From: a virus
Virus record (IMG/VR): IMGVR_UViG_3300030419_004004
Coordinates: 1 to 20,049 of that record
Length of the DNA stretch: 20,049 nt
Strand: one strand, 5' to 3'
Shown here: positions 710 to 19,500 of the stretch, piece after piece
How the letters are laid out: each line of letters begins with the position of its first letter
Numbering within the stretch: position 1 is the first letter of the stretch
Program-made: the position numbers and the translations under genes
Notes under the pieces: model-generated
What the model was told of the DNA's origin: nothing
The model's input: only the letters and a program-made list of their open reading frames with translations
Database searches by the model: none

Positions 710-1399
710 ATGGCGAGTGGAACCGGAACCGTTCCGTTCAGAACGTATAGTACTAATGACTTTATTAAGCGTTTTATGCATCTGGCTCAATCGAGTCAGT
801 TTCGTGCCGTTCTGCAAGTAAGTAGATTACCGTTCACCAAGGACTTCAATCCTCAAGGTGGTAGATTTTATGATGACTTGAGTATTTTGTGTACAAATGC
901 TATTCTGCCTGGATCAAGTTTTTCTACGACAGAGAACGGTCAAGATTTCTATGGTGTAAATCAAAGGTTTGCTTATAGAAGAGATTTTGATGATCTTAGT
1001 TTAGATTTTTATGTTGATGCTAAGTATCAAGTCTTAAAGTTTTTTGAGACTTGGATGGATTGGATTGCAAGTCCTGGTACTTATGAAACAGTAGGAACCG
1101 ATCAAAAGAATACGAATAATGTTTATAGATTTAATTATCCCAATGATTATAAAGTAACTATTGATATTCATAAGTTTGATAAAGATTATGAAAGAGTTAA
1201 TGCAGGAGATAAGAATATAAAAGGTACAGGAGATAGGAATGACATACTTTATACTTTTATCAATGCATTTCCTCTTAGTGTAGCTTCTGTTCCTGTTTCT
1301 TATGATGCGTCAGAAGTACTAAAAGTTAGTGTTACTTTTGCTTATGATAGGTATTTCTTGAATAAAAATACTAAGGCCGTACAACGTTCATTAGCGTGA
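710..1399 (+). CDS. Baseplate tail-tube-fold protein (gp48/gp54/gp19-like)
   Basis: This 229-residue protein opens the plus-strand structural operon. It has the look of the T4 tail-tube fold family (gp19, gp48, gp54). An extended beta-rich start (FRAVLQVSRLPF) and a NAILPGSSFSTTE loop come first. Then comes the central FAYRRDFDDLSLDFYVDAKY strand pair, followed by a helix with KFFETWMDWI, about residues 85-123. The C-terminal half has the typical FINAFPLSVASVPVSYDAS...VSVTFAYDRYF ending. It is probably the baseplate cap or initiator ring on which the tail tube polymerises, because it sits with hub genes rather than beside a sheath gene. It is shorter than T4 gp54 (320) and gp48 (364), so a plain tube protein is not excluded. 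A TAGGT ribosome-binding-like element lies about 10 bases before the ATG. Confidence 0.7.
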   Translation: MASGTGTVPFRTYSTNDFIKRFMHLAQSSQFRAVLQVSRLPFTKDFNPQGGRFYDDLSILCTNAILPGSSFSTTENGQDFYGVNQRFAYRRDFDDLSLDFYVDAKYQVLKFFETWMDWIASPGTYETVGTDQKNTNNVYRFNYPNDYKVTIDIHKFDKDYERVNAGDKNIKGTGDRNDILYTFINAFPLSVASVPVSYDASEVLKVSVTFAYDRYFLNKNTKAVQRSLA

Positions 1400-1432: not shown

Positions 1433-2152
1433 ATGCCTTTACCAAAAATTGCGACTCCATATTATGAACTTGAACTGCCATCAAGTGGTGAGAAGATTGA
1501 GTACAGACCGTTCCTTGTAAAAGAAGAGAAACTTTTAGTCCTGGCAATGGAGACGCAGGACCAGAAACAAATTACAAGGGCAATTAAAGAAGTTATCAAG
1601 TCATGTGTAAGAGGATCTCTTAAGGTAGAGAGTCTTCCTACATTTGATATTGAGTATCTCTTTTTAAACATTCGTGGTAAGTCTGTTGGAGAAGAGATTG
1701 AATTAAATGTGGTAGCTCCTGATGATGAAGTTACAGAAGTACCGGTAACTATTAATATTGATGATATTCAGGTTATAAAGAATGAGAAACATAAGCGTGA
1801 TATTGATCTAGGTGAAGGGTTGATGATGCGTCTCAAGTATCCTTCTCTGGAGCAATTCATTTCAGAGAACTTTGATATGAGTGAAGGTGCTTCAAATGTT
1901 GAGAAAACTTTTGATTTGATTGCTACTTGTGTGGATACAATTTATAGTGCAGATGAAGCATGGACAACTTCAGATGTGACTAAGAAAGAATTAAATGATT
2001 TCTTAGATCAATTGAATACAAAGCAGTTCCAAGAAATTGAAACTTTCTTTGAGACAATGCCTAAACTTCAACATACTGTGAATATTAAAAATCCTAAGAC
2101 CAAAAAGAAAAGTGAGGTTGTACTGGAGGGCTTAGCGTCTTTTTTCGCATAG
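1433..2152 (+). CDS. 26: Baseplate hub assembly protein, T4 gp26-like (probable tail-assembly chaperone)
   Basis: This 239-residue protein belongs by sequence pattern to the T4 baseplate (gp26) family common in marine T4-like phages. Landmarks are the N-terminal LPKIATPYYELELPSSG, the YRPFLVKEEKLLVLAMET helix (about residues 25-42), and the IKEVIKSCV...SLPTFDIEYLFLNIRGKSVG block, which is shared with many such proteins. A C-terminal helical and acidic region follows. Family members take part in hub assembly. The gene sits just upstream of gp51 and two tape-measure-like genes. The last codons contain T TTT TTC in frame, a canonical -1 slippery heptamer, so a minority of ribosomes may continue into gp51. 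A TAAATA late-type box precedes it. The start is the first ATG after the upstream stop. Confidence 0.85.
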   Translation: MPLPKIATPYYELELPSSGEKIEYRPFLVKEEKLLVLAMETQDQKQITRAIKEVIKSCVRGSLKVESLPTFDIEYLFLNIRGKSVGEEIELNVVAPDDEVTEVPVTINIDDIQVIKNEKHKRDIDLGEGLMMRLKYPSLEQFISENFDMSEGASNVEKTFDLIATCVDTIYSADEAWTTSDVTKKELNDFLDQLNTKQFQEIETFFETMPKLQHTVNIKNPKTKKKSEVVLEGLASFFA

Positions 2153-2190
2153 CGATGTCTCATATGGATCTTGAGGCATATTTTAAGATC
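2125..2190 (+). promoter_or_regulatory. Predicted programmed -1 frameshift signal joining gp26 to gp51
   Basis: The slippery heptamer T TTT TTC (2140-2146) is in frame with gp26, two codons before its stop. GGAGGG (2125-2130) ends 9 bases before it and serves no start codon, resembling the internal Shine-Dalgarno stimulator of dnaX. Downstream, GATCTT (2167-2172) pairs perfectly with AAGATC (2185-2190) around a 12-base loop; the 20-base spacer is longer than usual. A -1 slip reads R-I-A and then enters the gp51 frame exactly, giving a fusion of about 299 residues. The -1 frame is open from 2116 to the gp51 stop. Confidence 0.65.
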
Positions 2191-2331
2191 AACTTTGCCT
2201 TGATGCAGCATCATAAATACAGCTTAAGTGAAGTTGAAAATATGATGCCTTGGGAACGGGACATCTATGTTGAATTATTAAAACAGCATATTGAAGAACA
2301 AAAACTAGAACAGCAGAAACAAAATGCTTAG
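2155..2331 (+). CDS. 51: Baseplate hub assembly catalyst, gp51-like short protein (possible frameshift extension of gp26)
   Basis: This small gene encodes 58 residues from ATG 2155 (start MSHMDLEAYFKIN) to TAG 2331. It is largely helical: an acidic/aromatic first helix, KYSLSEVENMMPWERDIYVELL in the middle, and a Gln/Glu/Lys-rich tail (HIEEQKLEQQKQNA). The MPWERD...L pattern resembles the short C-terminal modules of tail-assembly chaperones such as lambda gpT. Position between gp26 and the tape-measure-like genes matches the gene called 51 in marine T4-like phages, although T4 gp51 is much longer. No ribosome-binding site precedes ATG 2155 or ATG 2164, and only 2 bases separate it from the gp26 stop. 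It is therefore made by coupling, by -1 frameshifting, or both. Its end overlaps the next gene by 8 bases. Confidence 0.75.
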   Translation: MSHMDLEAYFKINFALMQHHKYSLSEVENMMPWERDIYVELLKQHIEEQKLEQQKQNA

Positions 2332-11468: not shown

Positions 11469-14400
11469 ATGGCAGATTCTACATTTAATTTATTTGGACC
11501 TCTTACGAAGGACGACGTCAGGGTAGGATATATTTCTACCGATAGAGGGTATATTAATGGTGTGAGTATTTGTCAAGCTAATGTTCATGCAAAAAAGAAT
11601 CCAGGTGAGACTTTCATTTATAAACCTCAGAGAAATATAGTTCAATTTTTAACTATTAATGAAGTTAATAGAATAGGTGAGGATCCAAGTGATGCGGGAA
11701 GGGATAGAAGTTGTCCTGATGGTCTTCAAATGGATGGAGTACCTTCACCTTTGAGGGCAGTTTTTATGGGTGGAGGTGGAGTAGGTGTTGTAGGAAATCC
11801 AGTTGTTAGTGATAATGGTCAAGTGATGGCTGTTCATTTAATTGATGGTGGATTTGGGTATAAGTATCCTCCACTTGTTCAAATAAGGGATGATACTGGT
11901 ATTGGTGCGGGTGCTGTTATTTCTGTGGGAGTTGGTACGGTTGCCGACAAATTTGAATATTATACAGATAAAGAAGATTTTGAAGAATATAATCTTTGTA
12001 CTGATGTTTTTACTGATCCATCAAAGAGTGATGGTGGAAAGGATTCAAAAGATTCAACGAGAAGATCTGCATATGGTAGAAGATGGAGTCCATCTGGAAA
12101 GGATTTAGGTCCGTGGGTACCTCAAAATTATACTGATGATACGGAGGAACCTTTTGAGGATGTAATAGATGAGTATATTAAGCAACTCAATGAATCAGGC
12201 AAAGATTGGTGGACTACAAGAAAAGAACCACCTTTAAAAGTAACTGCGGAGGGAGTTACTACGAAGAGTTTTTATAAAGTACAACATTGGACATGGGGAC
12301 CAGGCAGTGCTACACCTTTTAGTGAGGTTCCTTTTGAGATACATTGGCATTCTCCTCATAGAAAGAAAGCTCTTGGGTTTGAGTTTGTGGCTAGAGATAA
12401 ATCTCATTCTTTTAGGATAGTAGATACCAGTAAGAAGGATGATGGTAGTAGAACAGATGTTTATCAGGTTAGAGAGAATGTAACTTATGATATAAAGGTA
12501 ATTGGTAAAAGGCCAGGGCCAGATTTTAAGAGTAAGCAGAGTGATAAGATTAACGAATTAGCAGAGATGGGACTCCTTAAAAAACTTGGAGCAGGAAGAT
12601 TACAAAAGGATTGGAAACAGTTAGATGCTAATGAGATAGGTGAGGGAGATAAAATTTTTGCTGATTTTTTAGATACTTTAGACGACGATGATGATATTCA
12701 AGTGCAAGCACATCGGGGAAGATTTAAGGCGACTAAACCGAGAAAAACTGCAGGACTTAGAAAGGATAGAACGACTTATAACTTAACTTATAGATTAGAA
12801 ACTGGGAGACAGGAGTTGGCACCTAGTTTTATGAATACGTATGCCATATCTCCTAAACCACCATCAAATGTAAAGGGATCAGATTTTGCAGGACGATGGT
12901 TTACTTTTGAGTGGGATATTGATTTTCCTTATGATGGAGATTATATTATACAGACAGCAAGGGATTGGAGCTCAAGAATTTATCTTGATAGTGAATCTTA
13001 TACAGATAAACTTGTAACCAATACTGGGACTAATCCAGGAGGTGATAAGAGGACCACTAAGACGGGGCATCGAAATAAGGTAAGCATTAAAAAAGGTCTT
13101 AAGAGGTTGCGATTAGATCTTTATAATCAACCTGAGATGGGGTTAACCTATGACCAGCAACCACCTTCACCTTCTAAAAGTCAGATAGTTTTTAATATTT
13201 CAACTGGATCCATGTTTGCTAATGGAGTTAGAATAGAAGGACTTGATATTAATGAATCAAAACCCTTTACTCCTGTAAGTATGGGACAAAAGGGTCAATT
13301 AAGGGTAACTCATACACGACAAATTGAGTATGGAAAGAAATATAAGGTAGTCTTTACAAGTAAAGGTAAAGGAGGAGTACAGGGTGATATTAAATATAAT
13401 AATTTACACCCTAGAAATAATCCTATAAGAGTTGTGAGGGGTGGAAGGAGAATTGAATTAGTAGATGGTAGTGGTAGTGATACTAATTTTGCACTTGATA
13501 TTGATTCTGGGAGAGGAAAGTTTTCTAATGATGGAAAACAATTGCAAGGAAGTGGAAATATTAGATTAACTGCTTCGTGGAAAGATAAAACTAATGTTGC
13601 AGGTGTAGCAGTAGATAGTGTTCAAATTGCTGGAAAAACTTGGAGGAGAAGCCGGACTAGAGGAAGTCAAACTCATACTATTAATGTGAGTAGTGCTAGG
13701 CCAAACATAAAATTGAGAACACAAGGTCCTAATGTTATTCAGATGGAGGATTTCACTGATAATGATTGGACTGATGTAATTGTAACTGCTAGTGGTGGTC
13801 AATTTACTGATCTAAAAGGAAATGTTGCATATTTTAGTGTTCCTTATCCTCCTAAAAAGGTAGGAAGATCCGAATCTGGTACTCTAACAGTAGCAGAAGT
13901 TTTTAATACTATTGATTATATTAATAAGGCAAATCGAAAATTATGGAGAACGAATGTTTATGAGAGAGGTGGATTTCTAAATGACTATGGTATTTGTCCT
14001 TTCGATACAAATATACAGTTAAAAGATAATCCTTATGCAGGAGAACATCAAATTGTATGGCCTAATGTTAATTTCCCTATTGATGGAAATTATGATATTG
14101 AAGTAGCAGTAGATGATAATGTAAAGATACAGATTGGGGATCAGGTTAAGATTGATAAAAAGGGATTTATTGGTGATACAGATGTAAGCACGGGAACATT
14201 AAAATTAACACGATTTATTAAACAGGGAACTTATAATATTACTGCAGATTTATATCAAAAGCCTGGTGGTGCATATTCTTTTAGAGATATTACTACTGGT
14301 AAGGAAGTTGAGAGAATTGATCCTGTTACTGGTCTGGTAAGGAAGTTCATAGAGAAAGTTCAGAAAACTGAGGTTACTTTTAATATAACTACTTCTGCAC

Positions 14401-17400
14401 TTTTTCCAAGTGGAATAAGTATTCCTGGACTTTTCTCTATAGGAAAACTGCTTGGTAACACCCAAAGAAAACAAACAATTATTAAGCAAGTAGAATCTGA
14501 TAAGGAATATGATATTATATTACCTACTCGTACATTTGTACCTACTGGTGTAAGAATAAAGATTGAAGATAAGGGTACCAAATTAAAGATGGAAGAATGG
14601 GTTAATAATGTTTGGGAAGATCTTAAAGTCACTGTAAGTGGTGGAGAATTTTATAATATACAAGGAAATAGGTGTAAGTTTAGAGTAAATAGGAGTCTTA
14701 AGGGTATTAACCCAATGGCTCTTGCTATTAATATTGAGTCTACTTTTACTGCGAAAAAAGAGATAGTTCCAAAATCTTGGAATGAAAATCCTATGGGTGT
14801 GGCATTAACTATTGAGGCACCTCCACCACCAATTCCTCAAGAACCTGTTCCTAAAGCAGAAGGTAGATGTCCTAATAATCCTTATTGGACAACTAGGTTC
14901 CCTGGTGCTAAAGAGAGATGGTATCCGGTTCGGTATGATGGATGGGGTAAATTGTTGAATGATTATGGTATTTCGCCACTTCCACCTTATGATGAGGATA
15001 GGCAACCTCTAGTTGATGTACCATTTGAGGTATACTGGAATTCTCCTCATAGAGATCATGGGTTGGGATATAGATTTAGGTCTCAAGATGGATCTCATTC
15101 TTTTACTATATTGGATAGTAGTAGTGTAATGGAGGGTCAACGAACTGAAACTCATAAAGTTAAATTAAATACTACTTATAACGTAAAAGCAATTGGAACG
15201 AGAGCACATGCTCAGGGAAGTAAGATATCTAAAAATGGTCCTCTTGGAAAAGCAGGTACGGGAAGTTTTGATAATTCCAAAGTTATTGAACTGGCAGAAC
15301 AAGGTCTTCTTAGACAGATGGGTGCAGGTGCATCTGTACAAGAATGGAAGACTGATAGGTTAGATGCTAATAGGAGTGGTACAGGGGATAAAATCTTTGC
15401 TGATTTTCTTGATACTTTGGATGATGCAGATGATCTTCAGATACAAGCCGGAGCAGGACAATTTACTGCATCTAATGCGAGAACAGTCGATTCTTTGAGA
15501 GGAACTAGAACAACTTATGATTTAACTTATAGAGTAAATAGGGTTCCTCCTAATGATGCTGGTAATTTTACAAATAGTTGGACCAAAAGTTTTGATTTTG
15601 GTGGATGGTTTAAAGTGCAAATGGAAGCAGATGATATTGGTGAGTTGTGGATTGATGATGAGAAAGTAATAGATTTGGATAGAAGAAGAAAGAAAACTTT
15701 TGATGAAAAGTTAATTTGGATTGATGGACCTACTTCTGATGAGGAATTTAGGAAAAAGGGTCCTACTAACCATGATATAAAGGTAGTTGTTGAGAACTTT
15801 AAGTCTCAAATTATGAAAACTGTTAATGCAAAAGTTTTCAATACTATGGACTGGATTGGTGGTGGTACTGTTAAACCACAAAAGAAAGTAGTTAGGTTTA
15901 GAATTACATCTGGTTCAATGTTTGCTAATAGTATAAGTATTCCTGAATTAGGTATTCATGAATCAAAACCCTTTACACCACCTACGCAAGGACAAAGAGG
16001 TCAAATTAATGTAACCCGTGAGAAAGAAGTGGAGGTTAATAAAGTTTATGATGTAGAGTTTTCTAGTAATAACAAGGGAAGTCAGAAGAATTGGGGACTT
16101 AAGTATGTGGGATTGAATTCATTAAATAATGTTATTAAGGTTCGAAGAAATAATAAAAGAATTGAATTAAAAGATGGTAGGGGTAATGATACTAATGCAT
16201 CATTGACTATTGATAGTGGAAATGTGAAATTTACCGATGATGGTAAGGGATTAGTAGTAAAAGGAAATGAAGCTACGTTTACTTTTGATTGGAATGATAA
16301 TCCAAATGTAGCTGGAAGAGCAGTACAATCAATTCAGATTGGTGGTAAAACATGGAGAATAACAAGAGCTAGAAGAGGTAGTATAACAAAAACCGTTCAG
16401 TTTTCTACTCAAGCTTCTCCTGATAATACATCTAATATAAGATTACGAAATAGGGGTGAGTCGGTTGTTCAGATGGAAGATCATACAGATAATGATTGGA
16501 CTGATATTCAATGTGCTGCTACTGAAGGAAGATTTTTTGATTTTAATGGAAATAGATGTAAATATGTTGTTGGATCTGCTACTAAAAGTGCTGGTGGAAT
16601 TGCGGGTGGTACAACAAAAGATGGTGTGACTTATGAGGGTCCACATTTATTCCATTATACCGATAGTCGATGGGGTAGAGTTATGAATAAGGAGGGTGTT
16701 TCTCCTATTGCATCTCCTGGTCAAAGTTTGTCTGATCCTAATGAAAATATTCTTGGTTGGAAGATTCTAACATGGAAAAATGTGAATTTTCCTCAAACAG
16801 GAAGGTATGAAATAGTTATGGCAGCAGATAATAACGCAAAGCTGTTTATTGATGGTAAACAGATGGATTTTGTGCAAGATAATTATAGAAAAAATGATTA
16901 TGATACAACATCAATAGAAGAAATAGGGAAGGGTAATCATGATATTAGAGTTGAATTATTCAATGCCAATCATAGATATAGAAATAACTCTAGTAAAAAC
17001 GATAGAAAGTTTTTATCTAATCCAACGGGTGTTGCTTTAAAGATTACTACAAGGATGACTGTTGGAACAGGTACTTATAAGTCTTGGAAGGAAAATCCAT
17101 TGGGTGTTTCTGCAAAACTTATTCCACCACCTTGCCCTAAGCCTATTAAAGGTAAGGGTACGGTTGTAGATCCTGTTGTATTAGATCCTGGGAATGGATA
17201 TCCAAGACCTAAGGGGCCTGGATATCCTGTTCTTTTAAAAATGAAGCCACCTATTATTAAAGATGGTGGAATCAATTATGATTGTTCGAAGGATACTATA
17301 AGATTGGAACCTTCTAATGGTGTAAAACTTTCATTGTGTCAATGTGGTCCTTTTGGTAGAGTTGAGAAGGTTTGTATAGAAGGTGAGGGAGGACCTGATG

Positions 17401-17786
17401 ATGGAACTGGATACTTTACTGAACCACCTGAAGTTATAATTGATTCTCCTACTGGTGTTAATTTAGATATAGCATTACAATTTGAGGTTGTAGTAGCTCC
17501 TCCGGATATTCCTGATATAATTCAGGTAACTGATTTGGTTGGACTTAAGAGGACTGGTTATTATAAAGGTAAGCCTTATTATGGTGCTGTTTTCTATGAA
17601 AATGGTATTAAATACTCCGGATGGTATAAAACAGCTGGTGAAATGGTACAAGTTTATGATACAATGCAAGAGAGCATCGATGCTACAGTAACTACTCCTC
17701 CATCTGCAATTCTCAGACAGGGTAGTGATGTTACAAGTAATGATCCCAATCTTAATATTCCAGGAACTCCTGAGAATCTAACATAA
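11469..17786 (+). CDS. Giant modular virion adhesin with repeated PA14-like domains
   Basis: This 2105-residue protein has a DGGFGYKYPPLVQIRD beta motif near the N-terminus (about 126-141). A long mosaic of repeated beta modules follows. Four PA14-like strands are visible around positions 12890, 14060, 15590 and 16780 (e.g. FPYDGDYIIQTARD, FPIDGNYDIEVAVDD, FPQTGRYEIVMAADNNAKLFIDG). A GSMFANxxxIxxL module occurs three times (about 13200, 14390, 15910). A KMEDxTDNDWTD-type module also occurs three times. A PFExxWxSPHR module occurs twice. The C-terminus (about 1890-2000) has another GYP-rich beta region with a Cys cluster. PA14 modules usually bind glycans, so contact with host surface polysaccharide or another virion part is likely. 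No ribosome-binding site precedes the ATG, which is 11 bases after gp5, so coupling is probable. I cannot assign a T4 counterpart. Confidence 0.75.
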   Translation: MADSTFNLFGPLTKDDVRVGYISTDRGYINGVSICQANVHAKKNPGETFIYKPQRNIVQFLTINEVNRIGEDPSDAGRDRSCPDGLQMDGVPSPLRAVFMGGGGVGVVGNPVVSDNGQVMAVHLIDGGFGYKYPPLVQIRDDTGIGAGAVISVGVGTVADKFEYYTDKEDFEEYNLCTDVFTDPSKSDGGKDSKDSTRRSAYGRRWSPSGKDLGPWVPQNYTDDTEEPFEDVIDEYIKQLNESGKDWWTTRKEPPLKVTAEGVTTKSFYKVQHWTWGPGSATPFSEVPFEIHWHSPHRKKALGFEFVARDKSHSFRIVDTSKKDDGSRTDVYQVRENVTYDIKVIGKRPGPDFKSKQSDKINELAEMGLLKKLGAGRLQKDWKQLDANEIGEGDKIFADFLDTLDDDDDIQVQAHRGRFKATKPRKTAGLRKDRTTYNLTYRLETGRQELAPSFMNTYAISPKPPSNVKGSDFAGRWFTFEWDIDFPYDGDYIIQTARDWSSRIYLDSESYTDKLVTNTGTNPGGDKRTTKTGHRNKVSIKKGLKRLRLDLYNQPEMGLTYDQQPPSPSKSQIVFNISTGSMFANGVRIEGLDINESKPFTPVSMGQKGQLRVTHTRQIEYGKKYKVVFTSKGKGGVQGDIKYNNLHPRNNPIRVVRGGRRIELVDGSGSDTNFALDIDSGRGKFSNDGKQLQGSGNIRLTASWKDKTNVAGVAVDSVQIAGKTWRRSRTRGSQTHTINVSSARPNIKLRTQGPNVIQMEDFTDNDWTDVIVTASGGQFTDLKGNVAYFSVPYPPKKVGRSESGTLTVAEVFNTIDYINKANRKLWRTNVYERGGFLNDYGICPFDTNIQLKDNPYAGEHQIVWPNVNFPIDGNYDIEVAVDDNVKIQIGDQVKIDKKGFIGDTDVSTGTLKLTRFIKQGTYNITADLYQKPGGAYSFRDITTGKEVERIDPVTGLVRKFIEKVQKTEVTFNITTSALFPSGISIPGLFSIGKLLGNTQRKQTIIKQVESDKEYDIILPTRTFVPTGVRIKIEDKGTKLKMEEWVNNVWEDLKVTVSGGEFYNIQGNRCKFRVNRSLKGINPMALAINIESTFTAKKEIVPKSWNENPMGVALTIEAPPPPIPQEPVPKAEGRCPNNPYWTTRFPGAKERWYPVRYDGWGKLLNDYGISPLPPYDEDRQPLVDVPFEVYWNSPHRDHGLGYRFRSQDGSHSFTILDSSSVMEGQRTETHKVKLNTTYNVKAIGTRAHAQGSKISKNGPLGKAGTGSFDNSKVIELAEQGLLRQMGAGASVQEWKTDRLDANRSGTGDKIFADFLDTLDDADDLQIQAGAGQFTASNARTVDSLRGTRTTYDLTYRVNRVPPNDAGNFTNSWTKSFDFGGWFKVQMEADDIGELWIDDEKVIDLDRRRKKTFDEKLIWIDGPTSDEEFRKKGPTNHDIKVVVENFKSQIMKTVNAKVFNTMDWIGGGTVKPQKKVVRFRITSGSMFANSISIPELGIHESKPFTPPTQGQRGQINVTREKEVEVNKVYDVEFSSNNKGSQKNWGLKYVGLNSLNNVIKVRRNNKRIELKDGRGNDTNASLTIDSGNVKFTDDGKGLVVKGNEATFTFDWNDNPNVAGRAVQSIQIGGKTWRITRARRGSITKTVQFSTQASPDNTSNIRLRNRGESVVQMEDHTDNDWTDIQCAATEGRFFDFNGNRCKYVVGSATKSAGGIAGGTTKDGVTYEGPHLFHYTDSRWGRVMNKEGVSPIASPGQSLSDPNENILGWKILTWKNVNFPQTGRYEIVMAADNNAKLFIDGKQMDFVQDNYRKNDYDTTSIEEIGKGNHDIRVELFNANHRYRNNSSKNDRKFLSNPTGVALKITTRMTVGTGTYKSWKENPLGVSAKLIPPPCPKPIKGKGTVVDPVVLDPGNGYPRPKGPGYPVLLKMKPPIIKDGGINYDCSKDTIRLEPSNGVKLSLCQCGPFGRVEKVCIEGEGGPDDGTGYFTEPPEVIIDSPTGVNLDIALQFEVVVAPPDIPDIIQVTDLVGLKRTGYYKGKPYYGAVFYENGIKYSGWYKTAGEMVQVYDTMQESIDATVTTPPSAILRQGSDVTSNDPNLNIPGTPENLT
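12240..14830 (+). repeat. Internal tandem duplication of the adhesin gene, copy 1
   Basis: This stretch encodes, in order: an SPHR module, FADFLDTLDDDDD, a PA14-like strand set, a GSMFAN module, the IELxDGxGxDTN and VAGxAVxSxQIxGKTWR modules, TDNDWTD, a second PA14-like set, and a closing SWNENPMGVALTI. The same order recurs at 14930-17140. Copy 1 has an extra GSMFAN-like and MEEW module pair near 14370-14690. Similarity is clear in protein; the DNA has diverged. Boundaries are approximate. Confidence 0.75.
14930..17140 (+). repeat. Internal tandem duplication of the adhesin gene, copy 2
   Basis: This is the second copy of the module series of 12240-14830: PFEVYWNSPHR, FADFLDTLDDADD, KSFDFGGWFKVQMEADDIG, GSMFANSISIPEL, IELKDGRGNDTN, VAGRAVQSIQIGGKTWR, TDNDWTDIQ, FPQTGRYEIVMAAD, then SWKENPLGVSAKL. 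It lacks the extra pair found near the end of copy 1. Boundaries are approximate. Confidence 0.75.
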
Positions 17787-19277: not shown

Positions 19278-19283
19278 ATCTTT

Positions 19284-19500
19284 GTTGGATCGACGGGTTC
19301 AACACGGGAGTGACTGAATAAACTTGCTGGCATAAGGCTAGTTAAGGTGATGGGACACAGGTGGTGCTGCTGGAGAGAGTCTCCAGAATCGACTTACCAG
19401 TCGGGTCTCAGATAGTACAGTAAAAATCTACTCAATGTAGCAATGCCCTGTACTTGTTGGTAAACATGAATCCAACCTCCCACCCTAATATTTGGAGAGA
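19284..19500 (+). ncRNA. Structured RNA candidate (independent ncRNA or long leader of the next gene)
   Basis: This non-coding stretch of about 215 bases lies between the sigma70 promoter and the next start codon. Hairpins found by eye are: TTCA/TGAA with an inner CAC-GGGA-GTG, a GNRA loop (19298-19318); CTGGC/GCTAG (19327-19341); a perfect 7-bp stem CTGGAGA/TCTCCAG (19370-19386); CGACT/AGTCG (19390-19403); AGTACAG/CTGTACT enclosing CTAC/GTAG (19414-19454); and GTTGG/CCAAC (19456-19476). GGTGG (19360-19364) could pair with CCACC (19480-19484). CTCC (19477-19480) faces the GGAG of the ribosome-binding site (19494-19497). No tRNA or tmRNA fold is evident, and I recognise no Rfam family. It may be a regulatory leader or a stable RNA. 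Confidence 0.5.

Follow-up and report, generated by a model that had tools for sequence, protein, structure and literature searches.

Genes 26 and 51 of a T4-like cyanophage-type virus are very probably one tail assembly chaperone gene read two ways by a -1 frameshift

In T4-like cyanophages the genes annotated as 'baseplate hub subunit gp26' and 'hub assembly catalyst gp51' raise the question of whether they are two genes for two hub proteins or one gene with two products. We examined this question in a window of 20,049 nucleotides, positions 1 to 20,049 (one strand) of the IMG/VR record IMGVR_UViG_3300030419_004004, a T4-like cyanophage-type virus (features in Table 1). The initial annotation had regarded the pair as joined by a programmed -1 frameshift, and the comparative evidence given below bears this out. 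We consider gp26/gp51 to be one chaperone gene read in two ways by -1 frameshifting, with a probability of roughly 94%.

Table 1. Position of the gp26/gp51 junction features and of the neighboring genes in the window
Feature	Position	Strand	Evidence
Tail tube protein gene, upstream neighbor	710-1399	+	Pfam PF23849 Phage_TTP_2, E 8.8e-18; PHROG 45 tail tube, E 4e-34
gp26, probable TAC-N (short form, 239 aa, zero frame)	1433-2152	+	Pfam PF12322 T4_baseplate, E 2e-73; PHROG 150
Internal SD-like GGAGGG, 9 nt before heptamer	2125-2130	+	sequence; anti-SD duplex vs synonymous controls
Slippery heptamer T TTT TTC	2140-2146	+	sequence; T TTT TTN in 267/270 distinct junctions
-1 frame extension, R-I-A and gp51 (probable TAC-C)	2146-2331	+	PHROG 634 baseplate hub assembly catalyst, E 1.6e-27
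gp26 stop codon TAG, one codon past heptamer	2150-2152	+	sequence
8-bp hairpin, 2155-2162 with 2172-2179, 9-nt loop	2155-2179	+	synonymous controls, covariation
Large gene downstream, possible tape measure protein, 686 aa	2324-4384	+	PHROG 37649 tape measure, E 0.001

The final codons of gp26 were read base by base as GAG GGC TTA GCG TCT TTT TTC GCA TAG. The T TTT TTC that had been claimed for the end of this gene is indeed there, in the gp26 frame and in the correct X XXY YYZ phase, and TTTTTTC occurs a single time on the + strand of the 20-kb window. A ribosome that slipped by -1 would read TTT TTT CGC ATA GCG ATG..., a frame open without a stop to 2331, and the predicted product of 299 residues is composed of gp26, R-I-A and then all 58 gp51 residues, exactly as proposed, while a gp51 initiated at its ATG would span 2155-2331 (58 residues). 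Two hallmarks of a programmed -1 frameshift, a zero-frame X XXY YYZ heptamer and a -1 frame open into the downstream gene, are present.

The order of genes at this locus is tail tube - gp26 - gp51 - large gene. The tail tube gene upstream of gp26 is clear, while a tape measure gene downstream is suggested by gene order and by a weak, local PHROG 37649 match that covers only residues 388-429 of the product (E 0.001). The tape-measure-like character claimed for the gene after the pair is to be corrected to this weaker form. The gp51 extension also matches C-terminal columns 241-280 of PHROG 150, which indicates that some members of this family carry both parts. Elsewhere in the window, on the + strand, we noticed a full-length match (169 bits) to manA RNA (Rfam RF01745) at 19283-19486 and an ORF of 2105 residues at 11469-17786 which, judged by eye, seems to contain long internal repeats.

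The first sample of relatives consisted of 158 IMG/VR loci, the window counted. Gp51 was in the -1 frame in 157 of them, and the heptamer TTTTTTC stood one codon before the stop in all 155 scorable loci. Widened scans yielded 271 distinct gp26/gp51 junctions; the frame of gp51 is -1 in 270, of which 267 carry an in-frame T TTT TTN heptamer ahead of the gp26 stop. The frame relation and the heptamer are therefore conserved far beyond chance. The sole frame exception (L124) has a gp26 broken just upstream and an intact heptamer. The three junctions that lack the canonical heptamer, all from Ackermannviridae (L165, L170 and L173), keep the -1 frame and a T-rich site, which in L165 is G GTT TTC, the site of T7 gene 10. 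A Vibrio phage outside the count of 271 (L174) has a TTTTC-type site, also with the -1 frame. It can be added that in these four loci, which all retain the -1 frame, P-site re-pairing at the TTTTC-type site is incomplete. Besides Kyanoviridae-type phages, the heptamer and the -1 frame were found in Vibrio nt-1, Stenotrophomonas DLP6, Agrobacterium Atu_ph07, Pseudomonas pf16 and Milchi, and Sinorhizobium phiM7 and phiM9. The alignment of still more distant gp51s (A2) was too diverse for scanning. Relatives that have both genes together with no slippery site or an incompatible frame would speak against the frameshift, and the proposal withstood this comparison: all sampled T4-like lineages in which the genes are adjacent keep the frame, and only the Ackermannviridae, whose T-rich site is a different one, depart from the heptamer. 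T4, T2 and Aeromonas phage 25 are set apart, having divergent genes and a gp51 which already possesses both domains.

Selection on the site was examined in 164 diverged genomes, less than 80% identical to each other. Where Phe is encoded at both codons of the heptamer, the pair is TTT TTC in 143 of 146 genomes, against a background in which TTC makes up only 30% of Phe codons, and only 2 of 143 genomes have TTT TTC at a second Phe pair of gp26 that served as control. The base preceding the two Phe codons is T in 154/164 genomes, while the residue encoded there varies (Ser, Asn, Ala, Asp). The genomes share ancestry and p-values calculated from them overstate independence; the contrast between the two Phe pairs is free of this problem, since the control pair has the same ancestry. 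The heptamer site is thus conserved beyond the need for protein coding. As a separate observation, codon usage predicts TTT TTC in about 21% of cases at the control pair (gp26 codons -35/-34 in relatives), well above the 2/143 found, which suggests that the slippery codon order is avoided elsewhere in gp26.

Could gp51 simply be a gene of its own, reached by termination-reinitiation coupling at the gp26 stop, with the heptamer being incidental? The gp51 ATG lies 2 bases past the gp26 stop in the window, and an ATG at this spacing is found in 61 of 143 diverged heptamer-bearing genomes. It is, however, missing in the other 82, and in 87 of the 270 junctions gp51 has no ATG, GTG or TTG in its first 15 codons, yet these codons are conserved as protein. 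The gp51 frame of S-CAM1, S-CAM4, Syn33 and ACG-2014c lacks ATG throughout codons 1 to 18 and in-frame GTG or TTG over the first 7 to 18 codons, and the records of these phages omit or truncate gp51, which supports the view that this gene is often missed in annotation for want of a start codon. Coupling also leaves unexplained the frozen third base ahead of the heptamer's two Phe codons, and these codons themselves, as well as a frame which is always -1 (270/271 junctions) and the heptamer being kept in five loci where the gp26 stop comes seven codons later. We regard coupling as the sole route to gp51 as very improbable. In those five loci (L223, L242, L244, L251 and L252), whose stop is seven codons past the heptamer, TTTTTTC keeps its position relative to the gp51 protein.

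Given the position of the ATG in the window, coupled re-initiation could nevertheless yield some separate gp51. In lineages with the ATG, the frameshift fusion might then be accompanied by free gp51 as a third product, which would be compatible with the frameshift reading. The exact spacing maintained in the window's lineage is in favor of such a combination of routes, but there is no Shine-Dalgarno (SD) sequence at initiation distance from this ATG, which moreover lies inside the 5' arm of a conserved hairpin that would hinder initiation; we therefore find this combination rather unlikely.

It had also been noted that GGAGGG lies 9 bases upstream of the heptamer and that gp51 has no ribosome-binding site of its own, and the sequence confirms both. 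With 24 bases between them, GGAGGG is too distant from the gp51 ATG to serve it, and no other SD-like stretch is close to this ATG. In the 164 genomes the anti-SD duplex amounts to -7.0 kcal/mol, compared with -5.4 kcal/mol in synonymous controls (p about 1e-20, kinship ignored), and this gain is local, strongest around the SD-like element. Codon choice shows the same. Of 141 Glu-Gly pairs ahead of the site, 98 have GAG for Glu, a codon whose background share is 30%; among the 43 pairs with GAA, the Gly that follows uses the rare codon GGG 14 times. The SD-like element is under synonymous selection, and a stimulatory element of this type is present broadly among the relatives.

The situation downstream of the heptamer is different for different lineages. 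The 6-bp stem named in the initial annotation (GATCTT, 2167-2172, with AAGATC, 2185-2190) is present in the window, but all six pairs are intact in only 8% of relatives and it was rejected as a conserved signal; it is another hairpin (Table 1) that is supported. This hairpin begins 8 nt past the heptamer. In the window it has -8.8 kcal/mol as compared with a mean of -2.3 for synonymous controls, of which 1.2% are as stable. Where the ATG is kept, in 61 diverged genomes, folding of the initial ten codons of gp51 is 5.4 kcal/mol more stable than after codon randomisation (p 2e-23, kinship ignored), a gain far above that of any later stretch tested, while in the 82 diverged genomes without this ATG the effect is much weaker and the hairpin is absent or different. 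In 60 distinct relatives, 29 cells of the helix carry two-sided changes, compared with 12 when shuffled; for example, the third base of codon 2 changes together with the middle base of codon 7 as U-A, G-C and A-U. The window's downstream region folded alone gave a z near 0 against dinucleotide shuffles, which means that single-sequence folding hid the hairpin and that it is revealed only with codon-preserving controls and many genomes. RNAalifold found no consensus structure over the mixed set of 61 sequences, and the hairpin is therefore claimed for the window's lineage only, where it is a supported, lineage-restricted feature. An inner tetraloop hairpin of the GGTCC-ATAT-GGACC type was seen in a minority of relatives (12%). 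It is tempting to assign the hairpin of the window's lineage a double role, that of stimulating slipping and that of holding the gp51 ATG and blocking free initiation, so that the gp51 domain would be made only within the fusion. We offer this tentatively, as possible and still doubtful; if true, lineages without the ATG would be freed of the need, which would explain why the folding effect is strong with the ATG and weak without it.

What are the two products? When the predicted fusion was compared with T4 gp51, the alignment extended end to end, spanning the junction with 235 columns (hhalign probability 98.2, E 3.4e-14), the gp51 extension aligning with the C-terminus of T4 gp51. Gp26 is homologous to T4 gp26 over its whole length (E 1e-15), and T4 gp26 and the N-terminal part of T4 gp51 are themselves related. 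In the structural model of gp26 (pLDDT 85.7) the N-terminal domain, residues 1-87, has its best matches in HK97 gp13 (2OB9, Z 7.9, a value just under 8 that would be inconclusive if taken alone) and YqbN (3KLU, Z 7.1). These are the best two of 748 aligned chains, the third having Z 5.4. The Foldseek match of the model to HK97 gp13 was weak (E 0.58), and neither a profile search with gp26 among sequences of solved structures nor an NCBIfam search returned a match. HK97 gp13 and YqbN are both tail assembly chaperones (TACs), YqbN of B. subtilis being described as one in PMC9603447. As modelled, gp26 has the TAC-N fold of HK97 gp13 and YqbN, and the short and C-terminally extended forms predicted from the overlapping frames are the pair of forms characteristic of TACs. 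Because the fusion aligns with T4 gp51 and gp26 resembles TACs, gp26 is probably TAC-N and the fusion TAC-NC.

The possibility that gp26 and gp51 are structural hub subunits joined by a frameshift for some other purpose agrees with their annotation in records and with earlier T4 genetics, which put gp26 in the hub (PMC3004832). The same review, however, counts both proteins as chaperones of hub assembly, gp51 not being part of the particle, and gp26 matches TAC structures in a gene order which is that of TAC genes. We can hardly give credence to hub subunits, and the proposed analogy with lambda G/GT, recasting gp26 and gp51 as tape measure chaperones, is supported by the comparative evidence.

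For the chaperone gene read two ways we infer slipping itself, its frequency and the roles of both products in tail assembly as follows. Most ribosomes would translate gp26 alone and produce TAC-N of 239 aa. A minority would pause at the heptamer and slip back one base, helped by pairing of the internal GGAGGG with 16S rRNA and, in the window's lineage, by the hairpin starting 8 nt downstream, and would continue to 2331 to give the 299-aa fusion, TAC-NC. If the lambda gpG/gpGT model applies, TAC-N would coat the tape measure protein, and tail tube subunits would be brought in through the C-terminal domain of TAC-NC.

The two TAC genes of T4 are reportedly genes 26 and 51. The TACs of T4-like phages were treated by Vladimirov, Gautam & Davidson (2022, Virology 566:9-15); two papers citing that work state that T4-like phages have TAC genes, that their TAC-N genes carry polyT frameshift signals, and that some of these phages make do instead with two genes, a short one and a long one that is fused. 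These TACs are the same genes as the pair in the window. Chaperone frameshifts in T4-like phages have thus been known since 2022, and the present finding is a correct rediscovery with a new example genome. In the literature searched, which did not include the 2022 Virology paper, we found no description of the SD-like element, the hairpin, start-less gp51s or the heptamer site in cyanophages. Our results support the misnaming of gp26 and gp51 in hundreds of cyanophage records, and add a clean data set of an invariant heptamer, an SD-like element and a lineage-specific hairpin which would make frameshift efficiency, and the switch of T4 to two separate genes, directly testable.

In lambda, the short chaperone gpG is lengthened to gpGT by a -1 frameshift, and their coding region is flanked by the genes for tail tube and tape measure. 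The window is similar in having a probable short chaperone with a predicted -1 extended form, 3' of the tail tube gene, and differs in its heptamer (G GGA AAG in lambda) and in the internal SD-like element and hairpin seen here; the likeness was found without sequence similarity being shown. T4 gp51 is collinear with the whole fusion of the window, but genes 26 and 51 are separate as well as divergent in T2 and T4, likewise divergent in Aeromonas phage 25, and in T4 gene 26 the codons for Phe-Phe are TTC TTT and the heptamer is absent. With divergent genes and a gp51 that has both domains, T4 would have a gene for each of the two forms. The signal of E. coli dnaX consists of an SD-like element about 10 nt upstream, an X XXY YYZ heptamer and a downstream hairpin. 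The same three elements are present in the window, while the dnaX heptamer is A AAA AAG and serves another gene.
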